A stretch of DNA of 64,000 nucleotides from a virus, in the IMG/VR virus record IMGVR_UViG_3300031746_000003, positions 1-64,000 of that record; one strand, given 5' to 3'. The translations under genes were made by a program, and so were the position numbers. The notes below the pieces were generated by a model. The model was not told the DNA's origin. It saw nothing but the letters and a program-made list of their open reading frames with translations, and searched no databases. How positions within the stretch are numbered: the stretch's first letter is position 1; every line of letters starts with the position of its first letter. This document shows, in pieces, positions 9,067-44,418 of the stretch.

Positions 9067-10290
9067 TTAGCCGTAGTTCTTGGTGAAACCAGCGGCCGGT
9101 GGTGCATACACCGGAGGTGCAGCACCAGCAGCCCCGTACTGTGGCTGAGCCACGTTAACTGACGGTCCTGTGGGTGTAGGCGGACCAAAGAGAGCCACCT
9201 GCTCATCGTAAGGAGTTGGAGCGTAGCGGGCAGCCAGATCTAGAGGCTTTGCTATTTCCACGAACCTTGGGTCGATAGGCTTAGGGTCACTGGTAGCCAG
9301 CACTACTAGCTGAGTGCCCTTGCTATCACCACCGCCACGGCGCTGTACCTGCATGTCAACGTCGAACAAGGAAGCCCTGACAGGCTGTACCCCAGTTGGC
9401 GTGCAGTTAGCGCAGTAGACGGCCTCAATAGGTAGAGCTGACGTCTGACACTTACGGCAGTGGTACTGCCCAGCTATCATCTCCTTCACCTGTTGAGCAT
9501 TCATGGTGGTGTTGCGTAGATCTACGATCACCTCACCACACCCTGGGTTGGCACAGTGCCAAGACACCGTGCTTATGCTGCCCCGTCCACCACAGCTGAG
9601 ACACCCATTGGCGATGTACTCGGCGTACCCGTTGATGGTTTCGAAGTGCTGCTTACCCATCGGCCAAGGCATCATGTGCCCCTGCTTGCTCTCTACGCCG
9701 GTGCTGCAACCAGGACACCCAATGCCTATGCACTTGACCCAGTTCCAGATGGGCAACCCACTGTTCCGGTTGATCAAGGGCTGTCCATCAGGCTGCAGTA
9801 CGTTCGTCTTGTGGAACACACCCATGTCCAACCAGTTGAAGGCGAACATCTCACGGCGAGATACTCGGTTGGGCCCCTTGACTCCCTTACCTAGGCGCTT
9901 CCTCTGCTCGTAGTCCTCCCAGAAGATGTCGCAACCACGGCAAGGATTCCGCTTGTTGCGCATTCGCCAGAACGGACCAGCAGAGCAAATCGTTCCACGC
10001 TGCAGTGTGCCATGGAAATGCTCGTCGTATGTGACGTACGAAGTTATGATATCGTACGTGTTCCCGTCGTCTCCCAGGTTGGTAGAGACGTAGCTACCGG
10101 GGATGATACGCCCCGTGTCTACGTTGACGTCACTGGGCTTGAACTGATCGCGGTAACTGAAGAACTTACCGCCACCACCTCCACCAGCCTGCTTCTTGGG
10201 CCTACGCAGAGATGCAGCTGCCTGCTGCTGGAAGGAGGCACCACCTTGAACTACACCAGCCAGATTGTTTGGGTCTTTACCGAATGACAT
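9067..10290 (-). CDS. Multi-zinc protein, possible gp32-like ssDNA-binding protein
   Basis: The 407-residue protein has at least six Cys pairs: C117-x2-C120, C187/C192/C195, C230-x2-C233, C246/C251, C278-x2-C281 and C293-x2-C296, so several zinc sites are likely. The N-terminus has a Gly-rich linker and the last 60 residues are Pro/Ala/Gly-rich and flexible. The layout of an early Cys cluster followed by 'MFAFNWLDMGVFH' recalls the zinc core of T4 gp32, and the position between primase and polymerase fits an ssDNA-binding protein. I found no OB-fold signature by eye, and a zinc-rich replication cofactor is an alternative. Confidence 0.5.
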   Translation of the reverse strand: MSFGKDPNNLAGVVQGGASFQQQAAASLRRPKKQAGGGGGGKFFSYRDQFKPSDVNVDTGRIIPGSYVSTNLGDDGNTYDIITSYVTYDEHFHGTLQRGTICSAGPFWRMRNKRNPCRGCDIFWEDYEQRKRLGKGVKGPNRVSRREMFAFNWLDMGVFHKTNVLQPDGQPLINRNSGLPIWNWVKCIGIGCPGCSTGVESKQGHMMPWPMGKQHFETINGYAEYIANGCLSCGGRGSISTVSWHCANPGCGEVIVDLRNTTMNAQQVKEMIAGQYHCRKCQTSALPIEAVYCANCTPTGVQPVRASLFDVDMQVQRRGGGDSKGTQLVVLATSDPKPIDPRFVEIAKPLDLAARYAPTPYDEQVALFGPPTPTGPSVNVAQPQYGAAGAAPPVYAPPAAGFTKNYG

Positions 10291-17163: not shown

Positions 17164-17192
17164 CTTATCACCGTTTATTGTCTAATCTTGCA
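17164..17192 (-). promoter_or_regulatory. Minus-strand promoter P1 (replication block)
   Basis: TGCAAG (17192-17187), 17 bases, then GATAAG (17169-17164) on the minus strand. The gene starting at 17127 follows after a leader of about 30 bases. This is the divergent intergenic region (17128-17231) between the replication block and the virion block. I could not pick out an equally clear plus-strand promoter in it. Confidence 0.62.
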
Positions 17193-20236: not shown

Positions 20237-20772
20237 CTCTTGAACAGCTAGTTGTAGAGACGCGCAAGGAGTTTCCTGACTTCGTTGTTAAGGCGAAGGT
20301 GAATAGCAAGTTGATGCTGCTCATCAACCGCTTCCTGCTCATCCTAACGTTCGGTGGGATGAAGACGTTCATGACTACGTACACCACTACGATGGGTAAC
20401 ACTGTGTACGTACCTAGCCAGTGGGCTCTGTGGACTGAGCAGTCTAAGGTGCGCATCTTGAGGCATGAGCGTATTCATATGCGCCAGGCTAAGAAGTACA
20501 CGCGACTTCTGTTTTCTTTTTTGTACCTGTTCGTGCCACTGCCAATAGGCTACGCGTACTTCCGAGCTAAGTTTGAGATGGAGGCCTACGAGGAGACCAT
20601 CAGAGCCGCATTCGAACAGGGTGGTATTAAGGCAGTAGAGGACTCGGAATTTAGAGCTCACATCATTAACCAGTTTACAGGCCCAGCGTACTTGTGGATG
20701 ATGCCAGATCGTGTGAAGATGTTCTCTTGGTACACCAAGACGGTGGCTAAGCTAGAGAGTGAAACCACATGA
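20233..20772 (+). CDS. Membrane protein with HExxH metallopeptidase-like motif
   Basis: The 179 residues contain H78-E79-R-I-H82, the zinc ligand and general base pattern of gluzincins, followed by a hydrophobic segment (about 91-110, 'RLLFSFLYLFVPLPIGYAYF') and the acidic stretch FEMEAYEE, whose Glu at 115-121 could supply the third ligand. An earlier hydrophobic stretch is at 27-41. It lies directly before the portal gene with a four-base overlap. A processing peptidase or a wall/membrane-acting virion enzyme are both possible, and activity is unproven. Confidence 0.68.
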   Translation: MTLEQLVVETRKEFPDFVVKAKVNSKLMLLINRFLLILTFGGMKTFMTTYTTTMGNTVYVPSQWALWTEQSKVRILRHERIHMRQAKKYTRLLFSFLYLFVPLPIGYAYFRAKFEMEAYEETIRAAFEQGGIKAVEDSEFRAHIINQFTGPAYLWMMPDRVKMFSWYTKTVAKLESETT

Positions 20773-22697
20773 GCTTTGTAGGCGGCGGGTTTGGCATAGG
20801 TACTTCCGGCGGCTCTGGAGCATCGCGCTTCTCCAGTACGCGTGGGCGTATCAATGGGTCACCGGTACAGGGTGTTAACTACCCTAGTCCGTTCTTCGAT
20901 GTCGCCCACACGTACCTGCCCGTCACGTTCAAGCAGATGTTCCGGTGGTGCCGGTACTACTTCTTAACGAATCCACTCATCAACGCCACGGTCTTTAAGC
21001 TCTCTGAGTACCCCATCACGGAGCTGGTTATTGACCATGAGCGTGCTGACGTAGCTGCCAGGTGGACTGAGTACATGCAGGACCACCTGAGGTACCGCGC
21101 ATTCCAGGTAGAGGTTGGTCTCGACTACCACTGTTATGGTAACGCCTTCGTATCCATAGCCTTCCCCTTCAAGAAGTACTTGAAGTGTTTGTCTTGTGGT
21201 AGCTCTGAGGAAGCGCAGAAAACTAGGGCACGTTGGACCTTCACCAACAACGCCTTCAGGTACAACTGCCCAAAGTGTGGGACCACCACAGAGGCTGAGG
21301 CGAAGGACGAGTACTTCAAGAACGCTAGTGGCATTCGGCTACTACGTTGGAACGCTGAGTATGTGGAGATCACGTACAATGAGGTCAGCGGTGAGTACAT
21401 CTACTTCTACACGATCCCTCCCACGCTACGTAATGACGTAGTGATAGGTAAGAAGGACGTAGTAGAGAGCACCCCGCAGGTGTTCCTACAAGCTATGCGT
21501 GAGGGTAAGGGAGTTGTCTTCTCGAAGGACAACTTCTTCCACCTCAAGCGCCCGACACTTGCACAGCAAGATCGTGGGTGGGGTATCCCACTGATTCTCC
21601 CGGTACTTAAAGACACTTTCTACCTGCAGCTAATGAAGAAGGCTCAGGAGGCGATTCTTCTTGAACATATTGTCCCTCTACGCGTGCTGTTCCCACAAGC
21701 TGGGTCTGGGTCCAGTGACCCGTACACAACTATCAATCTCGGGGAGTGGCGTGACCAAGTAGCTTCTGAGATTGGCCGTTGGCGTATGGACCAGAACTAC
21801 ATACCCATCATGCCTTTGCCTCTTGGTAACCAAACCATTGGTGGCGACGGTAAGGCCCTGCTGCTGACGCAAGAGATACAGCAGTGGAGTGAGCAGATCA
21901 TGGTGGGCATGGGAGTACCACGTGAGTTCCTCATTGGTGGTATGAGCTACGCTGGTACCAACGTCTCCATGCGTATGTTGGAGAACGCGTTCTTCGGCTA
22001 CATCCTGCGCCACAAGCAGATGGCTAAGTGGGTCATGAAGATGGTGTCTGGCTACATGGAATGGCCGGAAGCCAACATCCGCTTCAAGCCGTTCAAGATG
22101 GCTGACGACATTCAGCGCAAGGCTCTGATGCTGCAGCTGAACCAGGCACAGAAGATCAGTGACACTACCCTGCTAGCCGACTCTGACCTTAAGCAGGATG
22201 AAGAGAACGGCATCATGCTCCGTGAGACGGACATGAGAGTTGCTGCCACTAAGCAGCAGCAGTTGGCCATGGCTCAGATTCAGGGTGAGGTCCAGGTCAT
22301 CATGGCCAAGGCGCAGGTGAAAGCGCAGCAGGTAGCCATGGAAGCTCAACAGGGTGCTGTTGCTCCTGGTGAACCTGGTGAGGGCTTTGGCCAACAGGTA
22401 CAGAGCCCTATGAACGCCGGGCAGAGTTTGCAGCAGGGTGGGCAGCAGCAAGCTGGTTTGGACATTAACCAGATGGCACAGAGCTACTCTAAGCAGATTC
22501 AATCAATGCCTCCAGGTGACCAAGAGATGGCGATGCAGAACATCACTACTCAGAGCCCAGAGCTCGGGCAGCTAGTTAGGCAGCTGGTAGCACAAGATCG
22601 AAAGAGCGGGCAGCAGGGTACTCCACCAGCACCTGGTGTTGACATGCGCCCTATGCCTGAGCAGCGTGCTCCACGGCGTGCTGCTGGTATGGTGTAG
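20769..22697 (+). CDS. Portal protein with a zinc-ribbon insertion
   Basis: The 642 residues fit a portal: a Gly/Ser-rich N-terminus, 'FRWCRYYFLTNPLINATVFK' (58-77), a long central domain with 'GMSYAGTNVSMRMLENAF', and a Gln-rich helical C-terminal third (about 470-640) matching the barrel and tail of portal rings. A four-Cys ribbon (C140-x2-C143, C167-x2-C170) is inserted in the early clip-side region. The portal is the dodecameric DNA entry channel at one capsid vertex. The identification rests on pattern and on its place in the virion block. The terminase lies 19 kb away. Confidence 0.78.
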   Translation: MSFVGGGFGIGTSGGSGASRFSSTRGRINGSPVQGVNYPSPFFDVAHTYLPVTFKQMFRWCRYYFLTNPLINATVFKLSEYPITELVIDHERADVAARWTEYMQDHLRYRAFQVEVGLDYHCYGNAFVSIAFPFKKYLKCLSCGSSEEAQKTRARWTFTNNAFRYNCPKCGTTTEAEAKDEYFKNASGIRLLRWNAEYVEITYNEVSGEYIYFYTIPPTLRNDVVIGKKDVVESTPQVFLQAMREGKGVVFSKDNFFHLKRPTLAQQDRGWGIPLILPVLKDTFYLQLMKKAQEAILLEHIVPLRVLFPQAGSGSSDPYTTINLGEWRDQVASEIGRWRMDQNYIPIMPLPLGNQTIGGDGKALLLTQEIQQWSEQIMVGMGVPREFLIGGMSYAGTNVSMRMLENAFFGYILRHKQMAKWVMKMVSGYMEWPEANIRFKPFKMADDIQRKALMLQLNQAQKISDTTLLADSDLKQDEENGIMLRETDMRVAATKQQQLAMAQIQGEVQVIMAKAQVKAQQVAMEAQQGAVAPGEPGEGFGQQVQSPMNAGQSLQQGGQQQAGLDINQMAQSYSKQIQSMPPGDQEMAMQNITTQSPELGQLVRQLVAQDRKSGQQGTPPAPGVDMRPMPEQRAPRRAAGMV

Positions 22698-24648: not shown

Positions 24649-24677
24649 ATTATCCCCAAAAACAGCCTAAAATTGAG
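24649..24677 (-). promoter_or_regulatory. Minus-strand promoter P4 (methyltransferase cassette)
   Basis: CTCAAT (24677-24672), 17 bases, then GATAAT (24654-24649) on the minus strand. The core CAATTTT...GGGATAATAG is identical, with identical spacing, to that at 39918-39946. The methyltransferase start is about 37 bases downstream. Confidence 0.68.
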
Positions 24678-24687
24678 CTAAAGAAAA

Positions 24688-24705
24688 GGGTGGCCTAAGC
24701 CACCC
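24688..24705 (-). terminator. Intrinsic terminator of the AAA+/VWA operon
   Basis: GGGTGGC pairs with GCCACCC across a four-base loop, followed on the minus strand by TTTTCTTT. It lies 8 bases past the VWA gene stop and ends the operon just before promoter P4. Confidence 0.8.
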
Positions 24706-24712
24706 CTCCTCT

Positions 24713-26020
24713 CTAGTCCACTTGGTTATACGGCTCTCTGAGCTTGAGGTCGTCACTGACAACTACCAAGTGTCCCCAGTCAGCTGGCTTCCTACCCCAA
24801 CCTGACGGGACTACACACCAGACAACCTCTGTCCCTACTGGTGGAGTAGCTGGGGCATCTCCATCTCCGTCAGTTAGGTAGATGATAACGTCTGGCTTTG
24901 GTCTCAGCTTTAAGGCAGCTGCTATAGCTGGCTTGAAGCTAGTGCCCCCTCTGCCATACAGCTTCAGGTCCGGCACCTCATGAACACTGACTCTTCTTGG
25001 CTCACAAGCTACCTCGGCGTCAGCATCTAACAGCCAGGCGCGTTCTACTCCTAGCTGTTTCAAGATGGCTATGATCTCTGAATTAACAGAGTTGATCTGA
25101 ACATCTCCCATTGACCCTGACGTGTCACGTATCAGGCATATCTCAATCTTGCGGTCTATCATCCCAGGCCTGAGGATGCCTGTGAAGTAAGACCTCTTAG
25201 CTGGGCGACGGAAAGAGTAATCGCGTGTACCAGCAATCGCACGACCACTGGTACGTCTAACTACCCTACCTAGCTTAGTACGCCACGGGATGATGGAAGG
25301 CTGCTCTTCGAAGTCCACCAGGTCTTCTAGACCAGCTGGCATGTACCCACGGTTACTGGCAGTTAGCGTAGACGTGGCTTTCTTAACGTCCTTAGCTGTC
25401 TCCTTCTTGATACGAAGGACATCTGCCGGAGCACGCCCATGCTCTTTAGCTTCTTGGGATGTTCCCTCACCAGCGTGTGGGTTACCAGCACAGCTACCAC
25501 ACTGCCCGTTGGTTACCTGTGGTTTACCGTGGCCCTCACCATCCTTCGTATCGCCATCCTTAGCAGCACCAGCGGTCCCCTCACCTTTCTTACTCTTCTT
25601 TGCTCTGGTCTCTAGCAGATCGTAGTACTGCTCCAGAGAAAGATTAGTAGGGAAGCCGTATTGTTCTGGGTATGCTCCTCCAGCAGGCAGTTGCCAACCA
25701 GCATTTCTGAGGTCCTGGTTTATGGCTATGTCCCCAGCCAGATTAGCCTGGTAGTGGTCTGGTAGTGCATCCAACCTGGCTACGTCGCGCAGAATATGCA
25801 TGCACTCATGCACGAGTAACCCAGCAGCTTCTTCTGCATTGTGCTTCGTGTACCACTCAGGGTCTACGGTCAACACCATGCTTTTGGAAACTCCTAAGGT
25901 ACCTATAGGAGCAAGTACAGGCACTAACCCATAAAGGGTTTTGGCGAAGTACGGTGCGCGAGATACTACTAGAGCCCTGGCTGTTGCCAGGGCCTCCAGG
26001 CATTGCTTTTCTTTATCCAT
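24713..26020 (-). CDS. VWA protein with N-terminal metallopeptidase-like domain
   Basis: The 435-residue protein has two domains. The N-terminal one contains H71-E72-C-M-H75, a zincin-like HExxH. A low-complexity linker (about 138-200) follows. The C-terminal VWA domain carries the MIDAS sequence D299-T-S301-G-S303 and later 'GRGGTSFKPAI' and 'IIYLTDGDGD'. This two-part layout matches DUF2201-type proteins that pair with MoxR ATPases. VWA partners usually select the client that the ATPase remodels. It is the last gene of a six-gene operon, overlapping the ATPase stop (TGATG). Confidence 0.85.
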   Translation of the reverse strand: MDKEKQCLEALATARALVVSRAPYFAKTLYGLVPVLAPIGTLGVSKSMVLTVDPEWYTKHNAEEAAGLLVHECMHILRDVARLDALPDHYQANLAGDIAINQDLRNAGWQLPAGGAYPEQYGFPTNLSLEQYYDLLETRAKKSKKGEGTAGAAKDGDTKDGEGHGKPQVTNGQCGSCAGNPHAGEGTSQEAKEHGRAPADVLRIKKETAKDVKKATSTLTASNRGYMPAGLEDLVDFEEQPSIIPWRTKLGRVVRRTSGRAIAGTRDYSFRRPAKRSYFTGILRPGMIDRKIEICLIRDTSGSMGDVQINSVNSEIIAILKQLGVERAWLLDADAEVACEPRRVSVHEVPDLKLYGRGGTSFKPAIAAALKLRPKPDVIIYLTDGDGDAPATPPVGTEVVWCVVPSGWGRKPADWGHLVVVSDDLKLREPYNQVD

Positions 26021-27243
26021 CAGAGGTACTTGGACGCATCACTGAGTCCAACCTTAAGAACGACTTTGGCGGCTACGGCTTCTAGGCTCGCATGGTCTTT
26101 ACGCCCCAGCTTCTTGTTTATCAGAATCTTCACAGCTATACCTGCGATGTCTGTCAGGCCAGCCTCTGTCATGTCGAACAAACGTTCCCATGCTAGGGCA
26201 GCTAGGCGTACACGCTCACTCTTATCGGTAGTCCCCACCACCAGGGCCGTGAAGCTTCCACAGACTGCGATGGACCTATCCAACCTCTTGGAGTCTACCT
26301 TCCAGCCCTTCTCTAGGACGTCAAGGGGATCTGGGAGGTCTGCATCTGCTTCCCACGCGGCCCACTCTGTAGACGCACCCTCACCTACCAGCCCTTGCAC
26401 GAGGATGGTCTCTAGCTGCTTAGGCAGACCTAGACAACGCACTGTGGCGATGGCTCGGCCAGCCATGTACCAAGTGCGTGGTGAAGGCCATGGCAACCCA
26501 GCAGCAGGGCTACCAGGGGCTGGCTGACTGTGGAAGACACTGTTGTTACTGCGCATGAACGCATAGAGGGAGCCTTTTACAGCAGCCCAGTGCCTGTTCC
26601 AGTTCTTCTTAACCAGATCTTCCCCGTTAGTTATGGGGGTTACTGCCACGTCGTCGTCCTCTGACATGAGGTACTCACCCCACTTGTCCACAGGCATCAC
26701 ACCAATATTGAAGTGTGCCATCCTGTTGGCGAACGCAGCTTCTAAAGCCCAACCACCTGCTGCGTGCTCTGGTGGGTTCGCTGCTAGTAGGATTCGGATG
26801 TTATTGGACATCTTCATGTCCCCTACCTTGCGCTCGTACACGGTACTCATAGCAGCACCCTGGACAGCCGGTGGTGCACAGCTGGCCTCATCAATGACCA
26901 GAACACCAGAGCCCACCTCCATAAGCTTACGGATGGCGGGCATCATGCACTCTATCGTGATCCCCTTGGGCCCAGGAACCAGCACACCTGAGAAGTCCTC
27001 AGGCTGCTTAGTAGCCGGGTACACCACCTCGCAGTGCAGCCCAGCCTTGGCTGCACCCAGTTCTATTCGCCCAGTCTTAGCGATGCCGCTAAGCCCCCAG
27101 AAGATGCAGGGCAAACCCCACATGCAGTCTGGACTATTGGGGTCGCCTCTAACCGGTACCAGCAAGGAGCAGTACACGATATCCTCGAAGTACGGCTCTA
27201 CGTCCGGCAGACTGTCCTTCTTCACTACTGTATCTTTGCCCAT
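26020..27243 (-). CDS. MoxR-type AAA+ ATPase
   Basis: The 407-residue protein has Walker A G50-LSGIAKT57, Walker B ending D118-E119 ('GVLVIDEASCAPPAVQ'), sensor 1 N156 ('ILLAANPPEH') and an arginine finger candidate at R174 ('FANRMAH'). These features and the adjoining VWA gene place it in the MoxR/CobS group, whose hexamers remodel or insert cofactors into protein complexes. The family is known in phages, often labelled CobS/CobT-like. The substrate here is unknown. The start lies in a TAATG overlap with the upstream Cys-rich gene. Confidence 0.87.
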   Translation of the reverse strand: MGKDTVVKKDSLPDVEPYFEDIVYCSLLVPVRGDPNSPDCMWGLPCIFWGLSGIAKTGRIELGAAKAGLHCEVVYPATKQPEDFSGVLVPGPKGITIECMMPAIRKLMEVGSGVLVIDEASCAPPAVQGAAMSTVYERKVGDMKMSNNIRILLAANPPEHAAGGWALEAAFANRMAHFNIGVMPVDKWGEYLMSEDDDVAVTPITNGEDLVKKNWNRHWAAVKGSLYAFMRSNNSVFHSQPAPGSPAAGLPWPSPRTWYMAGRAIATVRCLGLPKQLETILVQGLVGEGASTEWAAWEADADLPDPLDVLEKGWKVDSKRLDRSIAVCGSFTALVVGTTDKSERVRLAALAWERLFDMTEAGLTDIAGIAVKILINKKLGRKDHASLEAVAAKVVLKVGLSDASKYL

Positions 27244-27815
27244 TAGTATTTCCCGTTCGGTGCGTTAACCATGCAGAATTCAGAACACCCATAGCGCCAA
27301 CACCTGAAGTGGGTACCTTCAGCGCACTCGTTACCCTGTGAGATATGCGGCCACAGCCGGAAGTCCTCACTCAGCCTTTTTAGGCAGCTGATACAGATGA
27401 CTGTTGGTGAGTCATCTAAACTACTAAAAGTAGGAGTGCCTTGGTCTTCCGGGGAGCGCTTAGAGCAGTGGAGCTCGCCGTAGGTGGCGAGCCCCATTAC
27501 TTCCACTTCCCGAATGCCACTGGAGCAGCAGCTGCACTCCAGTACAGCGTAATCATCTATTAGTGGTGGGAGGTCTTCTACAGTCTCCCTCAGCTCTTCT
27601 ATCACGTGCTCCCAGCAAGTGAACTCAAAGAAGTGTGGGTTGTAGCCATCTATCGGGCATACCTCGATACCACTAGGTTGTATTGCTGCGTAGCCAACCT
27701 GTAGTAGGTATACCTCATCTGCATACAATATTGTGTCTAGGCAGCTTCTGCAGACATGCCCACTCTTGTACACCTCCCGTTCTAGCGCAGCGTCTATCTC
27801 TAGACTCTCTTCCAT
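27243..27815 (-). CDS. Cys-rich zinc-binding protein of the AAA+/VWA operon
   Basis: From ATG 27815 the product is 190 residues; a GTG at 27845 gives 200 with a longer overlap. It has many Cys in pairs: C22-x2-C25 (HVCRSC), a C-S-C-C cluster near 103-106, C-x2-C (VICISC), and a C-terminal group CWRYGCSEFC. At least two zinc sites are likely. The acidic stretch around 50-95 may be a binding surface. Placed directly upstream of the ATPase, it could be an adaptor that links clients to the MoxR-VWA pair. That role is inference. Confidence 0.72.
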   Translation of the reverse strand: MEESLEIDAALEREVYKSGHVCRSCLDTILYADEVYLLQVGYAAIQPSGIEVCPIDGYNPHFFEFTCWEHVIEELRETVEDLPPLIDDYAVLECSCCSSGIREVEVMGLATYGELHCSKRSPEDQGTPTFSSLDDSPTVICISCLKRLSEDFRLWPHISQGNECAEGTHFRCWRYGCSEFCMVNAPNGKY

Positions 27816-28381
27816 AACACGGTCTCGCGTTCGACTCTTAACCACCTACGGTTAATCGTTTCGATCCTCATGTCTGGGTAAGCACCTGTATCCATGTCCA
27901 TGTCCCTCAAGAGCATCACTAGTTCTGTGGCGTCTGCCCCTCGGTCCATATGTAGCCTCCTTGCGATCTCGGTAGACTCCGGTATGAACTCCGGGTACTG
28001 CTGCCGAAGTAGTAGTTCACGCTCGTACAGGTCGTCTGTCAGATCTTCAGTGTCTAGACACAGTCCATACCAGCCAGTATCCGTCGTAGATAGATACTCG
28101 CTATTGAGCCAGGGACACCAATCCCCAGGCTCAGCAATCTCCAGTAGCACCTCCAGATCACGCTGGTTGCAGAACGTGAAGAAGTCCTTCTGGTCCACCA
28201 GTTTTGCTCTAATGCCACCCAGAGCTCTTCCAGGTATAGGTGCGTACAGACTCTGTATTGTCCAGAGCCTACTGCTTATCCCTGGGTCGGCTATTTGATA
28301 GCCTATGATCCCAAAGGATTCCTGAATCATTCTGGTGCCAGGAAATGTGAATAGTGGGTCCTGGGAAGGATTAACCAGCAT
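27800..28381 (-). CDS. Hypothetical protein of the AAA+/VWA operon
   Basis: The 193-residue protein starts behind AAAGGGACAAC. It has an aromatic- and Asp-rich middle ('FFTFCNQRDLEVLLEIAEPG' and 'CPWLNSEYL') and a helical, acidic C-terminal third ('ELVMLLRDMDMDTGAYPDMR'). No catalytic motif is visible. Its stop overlaps the next start by 16 bases, so it is translated with the zinc-binding protein. A candidate client or co-factor of the ATPase, family unknown. Confidence 0.7.
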   Translation of the reverse strand: MLVNPSQDPLFTFPGTRMIQESFGIIGYQIADPGISSRLWTIQSLYAPIPGRALGGIRAKLVDQKDFFTFCNQRDLEVLLEIAEPGDWCPWLNSEYLSTTDTGWYGLCLDTEDLTDDLYERELLLRQQYPEFIPESTEIARRLHMDRGADATELVMLLRDMDMDTGAYPDMRIETINRRWLRVERETVLWKRV

Positions 28382-28398
28382 GTTGTCCCTTTGTTTTG

Positions 28399-28476
28399 TT
28401 ATCTTCGTCTAGAACTCACCCACAGAAGTAGTCCGTTGAACACCCCGGTGGTAAACGCCCAGAAGAACAAACCCAC
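28399..28476 (-). CDS. 25-residue single-pass membrane peptide
   Basis: A GTG overlapping the TAG of the upstream gene (TAGTG) opens a 25-codon frame: a hydrophobic stretch (GLFFWAFTTGVFNGLLLWV) ending in SSRRR. This is one membrane span with a positive end. It fits tightly between two genes of the operon, so it is probably translated by coupling. It is short enough that chance remains possible. Confidence 0.42.
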   Translation of the reverse strand: MGLFFWAFTTGVFNGLLLWVSSRRR

Positions 28477-28613
28477 TATTTCTCTGAGTCCTCACCATCG
28501 TCGGAGGGTGTCTCCTCAGGTATGCCGAATAGTTCATCTACGTCTTGTTCAAAAGAACGCCCAGAGTTGTCGTCGTCACTTTCAGAGTCAGGTTTAGCAC
28601 CTGGACCTATCAT
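28476..28613 (-). CDS. Small acidic protein, first gene of the AAA+/VWA operon
   Basis: The frame encodes 45 residues from an ATG with GGAGG five bases upstream. It is extremely acidic (about 16 Asp/Glu) with the short hydrophobic motif 'DVDELFGIP' in the middle. Acidic peptides with one such helix often act as DNA mimics or as docking partners. It is directly behind promoter P2, and a leader of only about ten bases is expected. Confidence 0.65.
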   Translation of the reverse strand: MIGPGAKPDSESDDDNSGRSFEQDVDELFGIPEETPSDDGEDSEK

Positions 28614-28628
28614 GTTGCCTCCATTGCA

Positions 28629-28657
28629 CTTATCCCCGATACAATTAGATACTTGCT
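28629..28657 (-). promoter_or_regulatory. Minus-strand promoter P2 (AAA+/VWA operon)
   Basis: AGCAAG (28657-28652), 17 bases, then GATAAG (28634-28629) on the minus strand, matching P1 and P3 in geometry. It lies in the divergent gap (28614-28700) between the operon and the RNA polymerase gene. No matching plus-strand site was evident in this gap. Confidence 0.6.
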
Positions 28658-28700: not shown

Positions 28701-31700
28701 ATGGCCTATCTAGACCACGCAGAGGCGTATCGACACTTCAGGGACCGTACCCTTGAGGGGATAACTGAGTACTTTCCAGTACACGGTAAAATCCAGAGCC
28801 TTCATCTAGACCATCTAGAGGTGGACGAGGGAAAGCTAGGTCCTGACGATATACGGGCACAGTTAGCTGCGAAGAACTCAGGAGTAAGTTGGGCTGCCCC
28901 GGTCTACGCGACGATGTCGCTAAAGAACAATGCAACTGGTCATGTCATAGACAAGAAGAAAATACGTATTGCTGAGGTACCCATGGTTACTCAGCGGTAC
29001 AGCCAGATCATTGACGGGCAAGAGTACCAGGTAGGCAACCAGTGGCGCTTGAAGCCAGGTGTCTACGTAAAGCGTGGTAGGTCTGGTGAGCTGGCAGCCA
29101 AGTTTAACGTCCCTAACAAGTCGTCATTCGACATATCGTTTAAGCCGGACACAAAGTTATTCATGATAAAGCGTGGTAGCTCTGAGGCTATCAACGCGTA
29201 CCCCATAATGAAGACTATGGGGGTCACTGACGACCAACTGTCTAAGAGCTGGGGTCATGACGTTTTCATAGCTAACAAGAACGCTCGGGGCACACAAACA
29301 GCAGTAGACCGGTTCTTCAAGGTAGACAAGAAGCGCGCACCGGTGGACAAAGAAGAAGCTGAGAAGCACGTATACGACGTACTGACGGCATCCATTCTGC
29401 GTCCTGAGGCCACCAGTATATCTTTAGGTAAGCCGTTCTCTAACGTGACCGGAGAAGCGCTACACTTAGCAACTCAGAAGATACTTAAGGTACAGGCTGG
29501 TCACCCAGAGGATGATCGTGATTCCCTGGTGTTTAAGGATCTACATACAGCTGGTGACTTCGCCTATGAGAAGATCACAAACTGGAAGACTAAGAATGCC
29601 ATTACTGGCAAGTTCGCACGTAAGGTCAACACGGCTACTGGCATACGTGACGTTGTAAAATTCGATACGTTTAACAAGCCTATTAGAGAGACCTTTACCA
29701 AGAACAGCGCAGCTGAGGTACCCGACCAGATAAACCCAGTAGAGATGATGGCTGCCGCTCAGCAAACAACCATCATGGGTCCAGGTGGTATTCAGAGCAC
29801 CCAGCAGGTTAACGAGGAAGCAAAGTTTATCAATCCTTCTAGCCTTGGGTTCATAGACCCTGTGCGTACGCCCGAAGGTGAGAAGACTGGCATCAATTCT
29901 CACTTACCTATGGGGGTACGTAAAGTCGGGCATGAGGCGAAGATACCTTTGTATAACCTACGCTCTCATCAGACAGAGATGATTGGGCCAGGTATCTTCG
30001 TTAACTCTAGGGTCGTCTTGCCAGATCAGGTGTCGTGGAAAGACGGCAAGCCGCAAGCTAGGTATGCCAGCACTAAGATGTCTGGACCTAAGAACGCTAT
30101 TGAAGAGGGTAAGTTCTCTAGCGCTGACTATGTACTAAAGCACCCGTCGCAGCTGTTCAACATCACCACTAACTTGATTCCCTTTCTAGGGAACAACTCT
30201 GGTAATCGTGCGACGTATGCCACCTACCACATAGAACAAGCCATACCTCTTGTGCATCGTGAAGCACCGTTGGTTCAATCAGCTACGGGAGCGAGCAAAG
30301 AAGGCATCAGAACTTTTGAAGAGATAGCTGGTAAGAAGGCTAGCCACGTAGCCCCAGTGGCTGGTCATGTGCACTCTGTTAAGGATGACGCTGTAGTGGT
30401 GCGTGATGCCGCTGGTAAGATGCATGAGGTACAGCTGTACCGGTACTTCCCACTTAATGACCCTAAGAGCTACCTGCACTCTACCCCAGTAGTGAAGGTG
30501 GGGGACAAGGTGGCTCAAGGCCAGGTGGTGGCTGATACTAACTTCACAAAGGGTGGTGTGCTCGCCCTGGGTACAAATTTGCGTGCTGCCTACCTACCTT
30601 ACCGTGGGTACAACTTTGAAGACGGTGTGGTCATCAGCGCAACAGCCGCCAAGAAGTTAACTAGTGAGCACATGCACAAGCCGACTATTCGGCTTGACGA
30701 TAAGATCGTAACATCCCCTGAGCACTTTCAAGTAGAGCACCCTGGCTCTTTTACGCAGGAGCAGTTCAAGAAATTGGACAGCTCTGGTGTTGTCAAAGTT
30801 GGTCAAACAGTTACTACTGGTGACCCACTTGTCATAGCCATGCGGCCGTTCAACATGAAGGACAGGACCGGGGCATCAGCTATCCGGCGTAGTCTTTCTG
30901 GCTCACACACGGATGTTAGTCTCAGGTGGACATCCGACCACCCAGGTGAGGTAGTCGGGGTGCACAGGAAAGACAAGGACAGCGTAGTTCATGTACGCAC
31001 TCTCGAACCTATGCAGGTGGGGGACAAGATAGCTGGTAGGTACGGGAACAAGGGTATCGTTACGCTCATCGTTCCTGACCATAATATGCCCCATACCAAA
31101 GATGGTAAGCCCACAGAGATTTTGCTTAATCCCTCCGGTGTTCCTGGTCGTATGAACATTGGCCAGGTGTTAGAGACGGCTGCTACAAAGGTAGCTAAGA
31201 AGACTGGTAAGCCCTACTTAGCGCAGAGCTTCGCCCCGTTAGACCAATTGGAGCAGGTGAAGCGCGAGCTACACACTCATGGGATAAGTGACACGGAAGA
31301 GTTGCATGATCCCATATCTGGTAAGTCATTAGGCACAGCTCTAGTGGGGCAGCAGCACATACTAAAACTAGCTATCCAGATAGATAAGAAGATATCTGCA
31401 CGTTCTGGTATGGGCCTACCAGGTACTGGGCATGACCTTGAGACTTACGACATGAATCTCATGCCGGTGTCCGGGGCTAAGACTGGTGGTCAAAGTATTG
31501 GTATGCTGGGGCTCAATGCGTTACTCGCGCATGGGGCTAAAGCCAACATCCGAGAGATGCAGACTTGGAAGAGCGAGGGCGTAGACCCACAGACTAATCC
31601 AAGTAAGCGGTGGGAGTCACAGCACCTGGATGTGTGGGGTGCTATCCAAAACGGAACACCGCTCCCAACTCCAAGGCCCACGTTTGCTTTTCACAAGTTC

Positions 31701-34700
31701 ACAGAGATGTTGAAGGCTGCTGGTGTCAACATCGAGAAGAAGGGTAATCAGTTTCAGCTGAGCCCGCTTACCGACAAGCAGGTACTGTCGATGTCCAAGG
31801 GTGAGCTGCCTAGGCCTATGGACCTTACGCATGCCAAGCTAGACGACAATGGTGAGCCTAAGCCCAAGACAGGTGGTCTGTTTGACCCTAGGTTGACTGG
31901 TGGGCACGGCGGTAAGAACTGGACACACATCAAGCTAGCTGAGCCTGTGCCTAACCCGGTATTCGAGGGGGCTATCCAGAAGGTACTTGGGCTCTCTAAA
32001 ACTGACTATCAGTCCATAGTCTCAGGTGACAAAGCCATCAGTAGGTCTGGAGCTATAGTAGCGCTGGGGGCCATAGGAGCAGACACTGGTGGTGCCGGTA
32101 TTAAGAGGTTGCTGCAGCAGATAGACGTTAAGAAGGACTTGAAAAAAGCAGAAGCTGAGTTGGGGTCTATCAGCATACCTAAAGGAACTACGTCATCTGG
32201 CATCACGCAGAAGGTCGACAAGCTTGTAAAGAAGGTGAAATACCTTCGTGCTCTTGACGCCTCTGGTGTTCACCCAGCAGACGCTTATGTGCTGCACAAC
32301 CTGCCAATACTACCGCCAGCACTGCGTCCAGCATCAGTACTGCCTGACGGTACTATTAGTTGGGCGGATATGAATGGTCTTTACTCTCAGTTTGCTCAGG
32401 TGAATGAGCAGCTAAAAGACCCGGTGATCAGCAAGAACCTTTCTGACACTGCTAAGAAGCAGCTACGTGCTGACCTGTACGATGGTATGCGGGCTATCGT
32501 GGGGCAAGGGTCTGAGGAGAGTGACCAGAAGGGTGTGCTGTTACAGATACACGGGTCTCAGCCTAAGAAAGGGTTCTTCCAACAGACCCTACTTAGCCGC
32601 AAGCAAGACTTGTCTATGCGCTCGGTTATCGTACCAGAGCCATCTCTCAGCATCGACCAGGTGGGTTTACCTAGGTCTAAAGCTACCACCCTGTTCAGGC
32701 CATTCGTAGTTAGGAAGTTGGTTGAGATCGGTGCTGCTAGGTCGCCAATACAAGCGCAGGAGTTGATAGCTAAGAAGGACCCTAGTGTAGACCGAGCACT
32801 AGACTTAGTGATGGAGGAACGTCCAGTTCTTATGAAGCGTGACCCCGCGCTACACAGGCACAGCGTCATGGCGTTCAATGCCAAAGCAGTGCCCGGTAGA
32901 GCTATACAGATTCATCCACTAGTTACTACGGGGTACAACGCGGACTTTGACGGCGATACGATGAGCGTGTACGTCCCTATCTCTAACGAGGCGGTGGCCG
33001 AAGCTCGTAAGATGATGCCGTCTAACCATCTCTTCAATGAGGCCACTGGGCATGTCATGTTCGTACCAACGCTGGAGAGCGCACTAGGTATGTACAAGAT
33101 GAGCTTGGTGAACAAGAAGGTTGGTAACCAGTCTTTCGCTAAGACATCAGATGCACTGAAGGCCGTACAGTCAGGAACGCTGCACATCAATGACTTGGCG
33201 ACTATTGCCGGCACCAAGACTACTGCTGGCAGAGTTTTGCTAGCAGACTCCCTACCCAAGGAGATGCAGAAAAAGATCTTGGAAGACCACTCGCACATAC
33301 TAGACGAGAAGAATAGGTCAGCCCTCTTTACTCATCTAGCCAAGAACCACAGTGGTAACTACGGCGCAGTGGCAGACAAGCTTAAAGACCTAGGCACTGG
33401 TATGTCCATGGGGGTAATTACTCTCCCACACCCGGATGGCTCAGGTCCAGCTGTTATAAAGTCAGCTGAGAACTACAGCAAAGATAGGTTCCACATATCG
33501 GTAGGTGCGCACAGCTTGTCTTTGAAAGATATTGAGACTGACAGAGCTGTGAGAGACCCCATACTCAAGGCAGCACAAAAAGAGGTAGATGCTATCAACA
33601 GCAGCACGTCTATACCGACCGCCGACAAAGAGCGAAGAGCCATACTGGTATGGACTACAGCAGCAGACAAGCTGAAGAAAGACCATCTAGCCTCAGACTT
33701 CCAAAGCAATTTGCTAACTATGCAGCGGGCTGGTGTTAAGCCCGGCTGGACACAATATAAGCAGTTGGTGCTAGCTCCGCTATTAGTAGCAGATGCCTCT
33801 GGGAAGATCGTGCCGGTACCCATTCGAAGGTCTTACTCAGAAGGCGTTGATGTTGGTGAGTATTGGACCCAGATGCAGGGTGCCCGTGCTGGTAACCTCA
33901 AGAAGGTCCAAGAGGTTAGAGAGCCTGGGTTCTTTAGTAAGAAGCTAGTAAACTCTACTATGAGCCTAGTGATAAACGTCGATGACTGTGGCACCCACAA
34001 TGGTATAGCGTTACCAGCTACTAGTAATGATGTGCAAGATCGCACGTTAGTTAAAGACTTCTCAGCTAAAGGAATGACTATACCGGCTGGTACTCTTCTC
34101 AGCCCGGACATGATCAGTCAGATCAGAGCAGCTGACAAGGACGCCCATGTAGTGGTGCGTAGTCCCCTTAAGTGCGAGCAGGAGAAGGGTTTATGTCAGA
34201 AGTGCACAGGCCTATCAGCTACTGGGGTACCTTACCCAATTGGTACAAACATAGGACTGTTGTCTGCCCAGGCTCTTGGTGAGCGGTCTGTTCAGCTTAC
34301 TATGAAGGCGTTCCATACTGGTGGCGTCGTAGCCGGTGGCGCTAAGACACTGTCCGCTTTCGCGAAGGTAGACCAACTCACAAAGCTACCAGATGTCATA
34401 CCGGACTCGGCATCGTTAGCGATGCACTCTGGTAAAATAGATAAGATCGAGAAGGACCAGACAGGTGTTAAGGTTTGGATCGGCGGGCATGCCCACCATG
34501 TTGGTAAGGACCGTACCGGTATGCCGCTACACGAAATCCTAGCGCACTCACAAGAGATGGAAGGTTTTATCCCGTGGAAAGCGCCGAAGGTAGGAGAGCA
34601 TGTAGAGGCAGGGGAGTCGTTATCAGACCCTAACCGCACCACAGTTAATCCTCACCAGCTCTACAAGGCCACAGGGAGTATAGAACGAGTACAGAACTTC

Positions 34701-35153
34701 TTAACTAAGGAGTTGCATGGCTCGTACTCTTCTGAAGGTATCCGTAGGCAGCACGTAGAGTTGCTGGTCAAGTCTATGAGTAACTTGACCAAGGTACGTG
34801 ACCCAGGAGATTCCGAAGGGATCATCAAGGGAGAGTTTCACCCCACGTCTGTTATCAAGGCACTCAACGCGAAGCTTGTTAAAGAGGGGAAACAGCCAGT
34901 GGAGCACTCACCAGTACTGATGGGTGTTGACATGATGCCACTTAAGGTACAGGAAGATTGGATGGCCAAGATGTACCACAACCGTCTGAGAGAAACGGTT
35001 ATGGAGGCTGCCGCTACTGGAGCTCGCTCAGACATCCACGGTATTCACCCGATACCTGGGGCTGCCTACGGAGCGGAGTTTGGCTACACGGAAGCACAGA
35101 AGTTGGAACCTGGGCTACACCATCTGAAGGACGTACCGCGCTACGCGTACTGA
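28701..35153 (+). CDS. Single-chain multisubunit RNA polymerase (beta-beta' fusion)
   Basis: One 2150-residue frame carries both large subunits of a cellular-type RNA polymerase. Beta motifs: FIDPVRTPEGEKTG from F384; YLPYRGYNFEDG from Y631 with E640-D641; G774-DKIAGRYGNKG with K776 and K784; 'NPSGVPGRMNIGQ'; and the beta C-terminal 'GGQSIGMLGLNALLAHGAKA'. Beta' motifs: 'LPILPPALRP'; GYNADFDGD with Mg-binding D1415/D1417/D1419; a zinc site from C1825 (C-x6-C-x2-C); and QALGERSVQLTMKAFHTGG from Q1857 (bridge/trigger region). The junction lies near residues 960-1010. No alpha, omega or sigma gene is in the window. At 2150 residues it is shorter than E. coli beta plus beta' (about 2750). Its place among virion genes suggests it may be packaged. 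Confidence 0.95.
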   Translation: MAYLDHAEAYRHFRDRTLEGITEYFPVHGKIQSLHLDHLEVDEGKLGPDDIRAQLAAKNSGVSWAAPVYATMSLKNNATGHVIDKKKIRIAEVPMVTQRYSQIIDGQEYQVGNQWRLKPGVYVKRGRSGELAAKFNVPNKSSFDISFKPDTKLFMIKRGSSEAINAYPIMKTMGVTDDQLSKSWGHDVFIANKNARGTQTAVDRFFKVDKKRAPVDKEEAEKHVYDVLTASILRPEATSISLGKPFSNVTGEALHLATQKILKVQAGHPEDDRDSLVFKDLHTAGDFAYEKITNWKTKNAITGKFARKVNTATGIRDVVKFDTFNKPIRETFTKNSAAEVPDQINPVEMMAAAQQTTIMGPGGIQSTQQVNEEAKFINPSSLGFIDPVRTPEGEKTGINSHLPMGVRKVGHEAKIPLYNLRSHQTEMIGPGIFVNSRVVLPDQVSWKDGKPQARYASTKMSGPKNAIEEGKFSSADYVLKHPSQLFNITTNLIPFLGNNSGNRATYATYHIEQAIPLVHREAPLVQSATGASKEGIRTFEEIAGKKASHVAPVAGHVHSVKDDAVVVRDAAGKMHEVQLYRYFPLNDPKSYLHSTPVVKVGDKVAQGQVVADTNFTKGGVLALGTNLRAAYLPYRGYNFEDGVVISATAAKKLTSEHMHKPTIRLDDKIVTSPEHFQVEHPGSFTQEQFKKLDSSGVVKVGQTVTTGDPLVIAMRPFNMKDRTGASAIRRSLSGSHTDVSLRWTSDHPGEVVGVHRKDKDSVVHVRTLEPMQVGDKIAGRYGNKGIVTLIVPDHNMPHTKDGKPTEILLNPSGVPGRMNIGQVLETAATKVAKKTGKPYLAQSFAPLDQLEQVKRELHTHGISDTEELHDPISGKSLGTALVGQQHILKLAIQIDKKISARSGMGLPGTGHDLETYDMNLMPVSGAKTGGQSIGMLGLNALLAHGAKANIREMQTWKSEGVDPQTNPSKRWESQHLDVWGAIQNGTPLPTPRPTFAFHKFTEMLKAAGVNIEKKGNQFQLSPLTDKQVLSMSKGELPRPMDLTHAKLDDNGEPKPKTGGLFDPRLTGGHGGKNWTHIKLAEPVPNPVFEGAIQKVLGLSKTDYQSIVSGDKAISRSGAIVALGAIGADTGGAGIKRLLQQIDVKKDLKKAEAELGSISIPKGTTSSGITQKVDKLVKKVKYLRALDASGVHPADAYVLHNLPILPPALRPASVLPDGTISWADMNGLYSQFAQVNEQLKDPVISKNLSDTAKKQLRADLYDGMRAIVGQGSEESDQKGVLLQIHGSQPKKGFFQQTLLSRKQDLSMRSVIVPEPSLSIDQVGLPRSKATTLFRPFVVRKLVEIGAARSPIQAQELIAKKDPSVDRALDLVMEERPVLMKRDPALHRHSVMAFNAKAVPGRAIQIHPLVTTGYNADFDGDTMSVYVPISNEAVAEARKMMPSNHLFNEATGHVMFVPTLESALGMYKMSLVNKKVGNQSFAKTSDALKAVQSGTLHINDLATIAGTKTTAGRVLLADSLPKEMQKKILEDHSHILDEKNRSALFTHLAKNHSGNYGAVADKLKDLGTGMSMGVITLPHPDGSGPAVIKSAENYSKDRFHISVGAHSLSLKDIETDRAVRDPILKAAQKEVDAINSSTSIPTADKERRAILVWTTAADKLKKDHLASDFQSNLLTMQRAGVKPGWTQYKQLVLAPLLVADASGKIVPVPIRRSYSEGVDVGEYWTQMQGARAGNLKKVQEVREPGFFSKKLVNSTMSLVINVDDCGTHNGIALPATSNDVQDRTLVKDFSAKGMTIPAGTLLSPDMISQIRAADKDAHVVVRSPLKCEQEKGLCQKCTGLSATGVPYPIGTNIGLLSAQALGERSVQLTMKAFHTGGVVAGGAKTLSAFAKVDQLTKLPDVIPDSASLAMHSGKIDKIEKDQTGVKVWIGGHAHHVGKDRTGMPLHEILAHSQEMEGFIPWKAPKVGEHVEAGESLSDPNRTTVNPHQLYKATGSIERVQNFLTKELHGSYSSEGIRRQHVELLVKSMSNLTKVRDPGDSEGIIKGEFHPTSVIKALNAKLVKEGKQPVEHSPVLMGVDMMPLKVQEDWMAKMYHNRLRETVMEAAATGARSDIHGIHPIPGAAYGAEFGYTEAQKLEPGLHHLKDVPRYAY

Positions 35154-43707: not shown

Positions 43708-44418
43708 TTACCCAGGAAACGCCAAAGCAATGATGTCCTCATGGACGTCACCTTTACTAGCTGGGAACAGGCTCTCAGCTAACTTCTGTCCCTTACTGTG
43801 GCGCACATAGAAGTAAGCTACGTTACGTACATTCCTGTGGGCCATCATAAAATAGCTGTTCACTACAAACATCTCAGTGTCATGTAGCTGAATAGTTTGG
43901 TGATTGATCTTGTTGCCCAGATCTAGGAAGACCTTCCACGGCTCAGTACTTTCTGTGTACTGCTCGACTAGCCCTAGGTACTCTTCTGTGACTACATAAA
44001 ACACCCTGGCCCACTCCAGTATCTTAGAGCTGCTAAGGGGGAGCTCGCTCTCTATAAGCTCTTCAGCTTCAGCGTACAGCTGTAGGATAGCGAGTTCTGT
44101 TAGTACCAAGGGCTTGGTGTCCACGCCTAGTACCGTCAGTAGCTTGGACAGTAACTTCTCTGTATTCTGGCTAGACACGTAGGCTTGCTTGGCCATGGTG
44201 GCTACCGCTGCAAGGCTGGTGTCCTTTGACTTGGCCTCAACCAGCGCAGCTACATCGTCTATTTTGTAGAGCCTAGGAGATCTGGATGAGCGCCCAGGCC
44301 TGACGAATGGTAGAATACCTGAGCGGGTGTACCCCCGTACCATACTGACACCTACCCCTAACATCCTCCCAGCCTCCTTGGCGGTCAGTAGGTCAGCTTC
44401 GCTTTCAGGTATAGCCAT
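43708..44418 (-). CDS. MerR-like winged-helix regulator with large C-terminal domain
   Basis: The 236-residue protein opens with a MerR/excisionase-type winged helix: 'LTAKEAGRMLGVGVSMVRGY' (10-29), then 'SGILPFVRPG' and 'PRLYKIDDVAALVEA'. The C-terminal 150 residues are helical and unlike classic effector domains. It faces the plus-strand virion gene at 44443, leaving a 24-base gap, and transcribes toward a repeat-rich gap. It may control the switch of neighbouring genes. The DNA-binding call is firm by pattern; the target is inference. Confidence 0.75.
   Translation of the reverse strand: MAIPESEADLLTAKEAGRMLGVGVSMVRGYTRSGILPFVRPGRSSRSPRLYKIDDVAALVEAKSKDTSLAAVATMAKQAYVSSQNTEKLLSKLLTVLGVDTKPLVLTELAILQLYAEAEELIESELPLSSSKILEWARVFYVVTEEYLGLVEQYTESTEPWKVFLDLGNKINHQTIQLHDTEMFVVNSYFMMAHRNVRNVAYFYVRHSKGQKLAESLFPASKGDVHEDIIALAFPG

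Follow-up and report, generated by a model that had tools for sequence, protein, structure and literature searches.

A conserved opposite-strand unit with a MoxR-type ATPase and a metallopeptidase–VWA protein beside a fused RNA polymerase gene in phages

What does an ATPase–metallopeptidase pair do in a self-contained, opposite-strand unit placed between the portal and RNA polymerase (RNAP) genes of a phage, and on which complex might it act? Here we address this question for bases 1–64,000 (hereafter the window) of the 120,344-base IMG/VR virus record IMGVR_UViG_3300031746_000003, in which six minus-strand genes lie between the plus-strand genes of a portal homologue and a fused β–β′ RNAP. 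The last two encode an AAA+ ATPase and an HExxH metallopeptidase with a von Willebrand factor A (VWA) domain. We tentatively favour the view that the unit encodes a machine dedicated to remodelling a phage-encoded complex, most plausibly the fused RNAP or the complex with which it enters, and working in early or mid infection.

Architecture and conservation of the unit

The core of the unit consists of the 407-residue ATPase (26020–27243, minus strand) and the 435-residue metallopeptidase–VWA protein (24713–26020, minus strand). The VWA protein carries DUF2201_N and DUF2201 domains, belongs to PHROG_1314 and matches PF13203 and PF09967 with E-values of 1.6e-27 and 4.1e-16; its scores of 97.2 and 59.6 bits exceed the cut-offs of 23.2 and 26.4 and place it in the DUF2201 family. 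The HExxH motif is present in all 35 VWA homologues and the DxSxS motif of the metal ion-dependent adhesion site (MIDAS) in 34 of the 35. The ATPase is a relative of PHROG_1297 'ATPase' (2.3e-30), and its Walker A lysine, Walker B aspartate–glutamate, sensor-1 asparagine, putative arginine finger and sensor-2 arginine are kept in 100% of 35 homologues. When its profile was compared with PDB sequences, Midasin was matched at 3.1e-8 and RavA weakly (0.027). It falls below the Pfam cut-offs for AAA_3 and AAA_5 (13 bits against 27 for AAA_3, the MoxR-type family), so we term it 'MoxR-type' on the basis of the PHROG match, the motifs, the Midasin profile match and the pairing with VWA, and do not file it as a MoxR family member. 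With this restriction of the label, the MoxR–VWA pair of the original prediction is confirmed, and its intact catalytic sites make it look active.

PHROG and GenBank label this VWA protein an 'HNH endonuclease', a name that we reject, as Pfam finds two DUF2201 domains and no HNH domain. DUF2201 metallopeptidase–VWA proteins widely bear this label in PHROG_1314 and GenBank, apparently a propagated misannotation.

Related viral contigs were collected by searches with the RNAP, orf193 and the VWA protein, and profiles of each gene were then applied to them. The genes for orf193 (27800–28381, minus strand), orf200 (27243–27845, minus strand), the ATPase and the VWA protein keep one order, strand and place, the portal–RNAP interval, in 35 different phages with a fused RNAP, one of them that of the window. 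The ATPase gene is paired with a VWA gene in each of the 35 fused-RNAP phages that hold it, and in all 35 the pair lies behind orf193 and orf200. Those RNAPs that were compared directly are mostly 50–55% identical to that of the window. In every related locus that covers that side, orf193 adjoins the RNAP gene.

The unit is, as its sequence is organized, one unit of transcription and translation. It begins with a promoter (28629–28656, minus strand; GCAAGTATCTAATTGTATCGGGGATAAG) of the class GCAA-N18-GATAAG and ends in a hairpin 3′ of the VWA stop codon (24670–24720, minus strand; GGGTGGC-TTAG-GCCACCC, then TTTTCTTT) with a T-rich tail. This hairpin has a folding free energy of −27.4 kcal/mol (z −4.9), which none of 200 shuffles equalled; a simple terminator scan did not report it. 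The acidic-protein and 25-residue-peptide genes, the orf200 and ATPase genes, and the ATPase and VWA genes each overlap by 1 bp, and orf193 and orf200 overlap by 46 bp, so that four of the five junctions overlap, as fits translational coupling. The original prediction of six coupled genes served by a promoter and a terminator of their own was thus correct.

The first two genes are very small. One encodes an acidic 45-residue protein (28476–28613, minus strand; net charge −13), in which a helix-like motif, NSGxxFExxVDxLF, is followed by an acidic tail; the other a 25-residue hydrophobic membrane peptide (28399–28476, minus strand) with a GTG start, a single span and the motif FWAFxxGxxNGxLxW, of which GxxNG lies inside the hydrophobic span. 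Profiles of the acidic protein and of the membrane peptide each detect 29 of 39 leaders (17 and 19, respectively, outside the profile build) against ~1% of shuffled leaders, and strong hydrophobicity is found in 27 of the 39 leaders against 0.8% of shuffles. One leader missed by the profiles, L039 (L013 in another locus set), has a 161-residue HNH-like open reading frame (ORF) between the membrane-peptide and orf193 genes (near 9148–9630); in several other missed leaders, peptides are recognizable by eye. The small partners therefore belong to the unit, as had been suspected.

Conservation among the unknown proteins is highest in orf193, with 14 invariant columns among 39 homologues and a confident AlphaFold2 model (predicted local distance difference test (pLDDT) 95.1, predicted template modelling score 0.90). 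The cysteine-rich orf200 (model pLDDT 88.3) probably binds zinc, given that Cys32, 35, 77, 104, 107, 151 and 154 are kept in 87–100% of 39 homologues. Fold searches with orf193 against PDB and BFVD and with orf200 against PDB returned nothing significant (best Z 3.0 and 3.7); weak SH3/Tudor-like and PARP-type zinc-finger-like resemblances, respectively, did not rise above noise and are disregarded. Their profiles found nothing credible among PDB sequences, an NCBIfam search gave nothing over the cut-off, and neither protein has a match among annotated phages, including 387 records with a VWA relative. No cellular relative of orf193 or the RNAP was confirmed in genome_contigs, nor did these contigs point to a host.

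The surroundings agree with a location inside a virion block, as had been stated: portal, terminase and tail sheath genes around the unit are all on the plus strand. The portal homologue (20769–22697, plus strand) matches, as a profile, gp204 of Salmonella phage Arash, an annotated portal protein, at 1e-101. The fused RNAP of 2,150 residues (28701–35153, plus strand) contains NADFDGD; in the available text of the mReC paper, the word 'fused' occurs only in a mention of crAssphage (PMC7481178). Directly 3′ of the unit is a methyltransferase-like gene (PHROG_19090; 24064–24627, minus strand) with its own GGGGATAA element at 24650–24657, present among the compared loci only in the near-identical L011. 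Next to the terminase gene, a MerR-like regulator is encoded on the other strand (43708–44418, minus strand), and its gene is kept in nearly all related loci. Some relatives have long in-frame insertions, possibly inteins, in the RNAP, portal, terminase and orf685 frames (L015, 10001–19750; L014, 1837–4740 and 22246–25098; L005, 14253–17126; L011, 18409–20721).

Promoter class and expression timing

The spacing of GCAA-N18-GATAAG is that of sigma-28-type promoters. Among the matches listed for the unit promoter the spacer is 18 in 24 of 29, and any match is found in 25 of 39 leaders against 5% of shuffles. Sites of the class occur in 13 of 15 related genomes, and a reversed-pattern control is near zero. 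The window has two (17164–17191 and the unit promoter) and record G000 has one at 84456–84483. A further 17 strict sites, hand-picked from pattern matches, are present in five genomes (~185–190 kb), and none lies within 30 kb of the unit against 5.3 expected (P 0.0016; a second match inside the leader in two genomes was left uncounted). In twenty sampled stretches, genes behind the sites match helicases, phosphoesterases, ProQ-like proteins and acetyltransferases; a sigma factor gene lies ~0.7 kb behind one site, and the window site at 17164–17191 precedes a leftward replication cluster. Some related phages encode a Sigma70_r2 protein, for which the window's own record has no match. Because few structural genes match any library, the missing structural matches are weak evidence and the spatial test is the better one. 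Apart from the unit promoter, the class keeps away from the structural block; early or middle expression of the unit is therefore probable, and speaks against a simple role in late virion assembly.

Candidate client and rival explanations

In MoxR–VWA pairs, the ATPase generally acts via its VWA partner. By analogy, the ATPase would form a MoxR-type hexamer working through the VWA/metallopeptidase protein. The VWA metal site may bind an acidic ligand, most obviously the acidic-tailed protein; the membrane peptide could position the machine at the inner membrane, and orf193 and the putative zinc protein orf200 would connect it to its client. The fused RNAP, or a complex entering with it, would then be remodelled or trimmed in early or mid infection, not at virion assembly. 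We count in favour of such a remodelling machine the co-conservation of four genes, the retention of the tiny genes, the intact catalytic residues and the distribution of promoter sites, together with the middle timing of the N4 pair, the position of the DL64 pair and the peptide detections in phage DC4 (see below). A more elaborate version, which we regard as quite unlikely, is that an unfoldase–peptidase with four adaptors refolds, trims or releases the giant fused RNAP or its entry complex at the inner membrane, thereby solving the assembly or reactivation of an RNAP without alpha and omega.

The choice of client rests on two further relatives, L058 and L060, whose portal–RNAP interval is devoid of the ATPase pair. 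Both keep orf193 and an orf200-like gene beside the RNAP gene (L058 also the membrane peptide, L060 an acidic ORF), and it is because these genes stay by the RNAP that the RNAP or its entry complex appears the likeliest client. In an RNAP tree with Vibrio phage D69 and Salmonella phage Arash as the outgroup, L058 is deepest (98/93), and L060 is nested beside L047 and L087 (99/98). The simplest reading, with both contigs partial, is that the pair was gained after the L058 split and lost in L060; a search for further relatives of L058 that might distinguish gain from loss found none. Fused-RNAP phages have VWA proteins that group in a single clade (97/90), adjacent to thirteen VWA proteins of other phages, which is most simply explained by one acquisition with joint inheritance thereafter.

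Several observations weigh against the RNAP as client. The L058 and L060 contigs span 35 and 85 kb, and the pair may be encoded elsewhere in these phages. In eleven records of the sister VWA clade (partial contigs), the pair is present but orf193, an Rpb2_6 domain and an N4-type virion RNAP (vRNAP) are all absent. D69 and Arash, which have related RNAP versions, split, beside the portal gene, encode no DUF2201_N protein anywhere. Since the interval that holds orf193 and orf200 also borders on the portal gene, the tie could be to the portal instead, and the structures of these two proteins yielded no functional lead. Maturation of the polymerase, one of the functions originally suggested, hence remains a possibility that D69 and Arash leave unproven.

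Gene content indicates that the ATPase pair is separable from orf193 and orf200 and from the RNAP. The original association of the pair with its upstream genes accordingly stands within the fused-RNAP clade and fails elsewhere, where the eleven sister records have the pair without orf193 or a multisubunit RNAP, and where the 387 annotated records hold a VWA relative and none matches orf193 or orf200. A universal link between the pair and a virion RNAP is rejected: S-TIM5 and phiKT1024 carry a VWA relative, and no N4-type vRNAP was found in them or in the eleven sister-clade records, and sister records also lack Rpb2_6.

As an alternative, the pair could be a chaperone of virion assembly or maturation that builds head or tail parts, with the HExxH domain trimming structural proteins, as Iyer et al. 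proposed for this domain combination in group 2.2 jumbo phages, taking Acidianus two-tailed virus as the analogue (PMC7824862). We find this possible, if doubtful. The unit does sit between portal and RNAP genes in the structural block, and the pairs of S-TIM5 and RM378 are near structural genes. However, it is on the opposite strand, and the promoter that it has for itself belongs to a class otherwise missing from that block; D69 and Arash form virions without the pair; and the homologous N4 genes gp24 and gp25 are transcribed as middle genes (PMC4193335). Promoter distribution and N4 timing thus also speak against the virion maturation entertained originally.

An unlikely explanation is that the unit is a moron-like accessory cassette directed at the host, that is, an early membrane machine for superinfection exclusion, host takeover or counter-defence. 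It would account for a self-contained opposite-strand unit with a membrane peptide and with a promoter and terminator independent of the late genes, for a promoter class common to short genes outside the structural block, and for the absence of the pair from the L058 and L060 loci. Unlike morons and counter-defence genes, which vary among close relatives, the unit is present and collinear in nearly all of them, although the RNAPs are 50–55% identical. PADLOC gave no match for the ATPase, the VWA protein, orf193 or orf200 at E 0.1, and the earlier suggestion of counter-defence gained no positive evidence.

Finally, it is improbable that what the pair matures is a metal-dependent phage enzyme or a replication complex, as NorQ/NorD and CoxD/CoxE might suggest, with a merely historical RNAP neighbourhood: known MoxR–VWA pairs activate metalloenzymes (PMC9976466), the DL64 pair has genes for a helicase and a DNA polymerase as neighbours and a same-class promoter site precedes the window's replication cluster, but the unit holds no candidate metalloenzyme, orf200 being its sole cysteine-rich partner.

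Comparison with known phage pairs and cellular machines

Many of the 387 annotated phage records matched by the VWA protein are N4-like by size and name. The N4 pair gp24/gp25 belongs to the core genes, with a function still to be assigned (PMC4193335, PMC7650795), and resembles the present one in its adjacent ATPase and DUF2201-type VWA genes (VWA ~22–28% identical in N4-like phages). Its timing in N4 is middle, and the promoter class suggests early or middle expression here. N4 also has its own virion RNAP; the fused RNAP of the window is a candidate for one by the position of its gene. To our knowledge, the N4 vRNAP is unrelated to the fused RNAP described here. The VWA protein of DL64 (Schitoviridae) matches at 4e-7 over 98% of the query, and an ATPase gene lies directly before its gene, which identifies the two as homologues of the N4-type pair. 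By contrast with the unit, the DL64 pair sits between RNAPII and replication genes (helicase, DNA polymerase), and relatives of orf193 and orf200 are lacking in annotated phages. The fused-RNAP clade thus ties core genes of the gp24/gp25 type to four specific partners and one locus, which provides concrete baits for the client. Were the client the RNAP, this would explain how phages handle large polymerases without the usual assembly subunits.

Jumbo phages provide a second comparison. The available text of Iyer et al. (2021; PMC7824862) reports in group 2.2 jumbo phages a MoxR–vWA/metallopeptidase pair, proposed to act in virion assembly, with the same two-protein architecture and N-terminal metallopeptidase on the VWA protein; that text mentions neither a conserved lead of four genes nor a fused RNAP next to the pair. 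Virion preparations of Staphylococcus jumbo phage DC4 yielded a vRNAP subunit and an AAA ATPase, each detected by a single peptide, for which the authors ask confirmation; the ATPase, which they call MoxR-like, is encoded beside a metallopeptidase (PMC10638138). Other carriers of the VWA protein include Thermus phage phiFa and, among the Bacillus jumbo phages that have an RNAP, PBS1 (PMC7598289).

The cellular machines RavA–ViaA, NorQ–NorD and Midasin share with the unit a MoxR-type ATPase and a MIDAS-bearing partner that contacts the client, and differ in that their clients are cellular complexes. ViaA, NorD and Midasin are, as far as we know, without an HExxH domain. The p618/p892 proteins of Acidianus two-tailed virus form a viral MoxR–VWA pair as well, and differ in having no peptidase domain and in serving, in an archaeal virus, extracellular tail development (as cited in PMC7824862). 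The core pair is thus already known from N4-like and jumbo phages; new in the fused-RNAP phages are its conserved partners, its locus and its promoter class.

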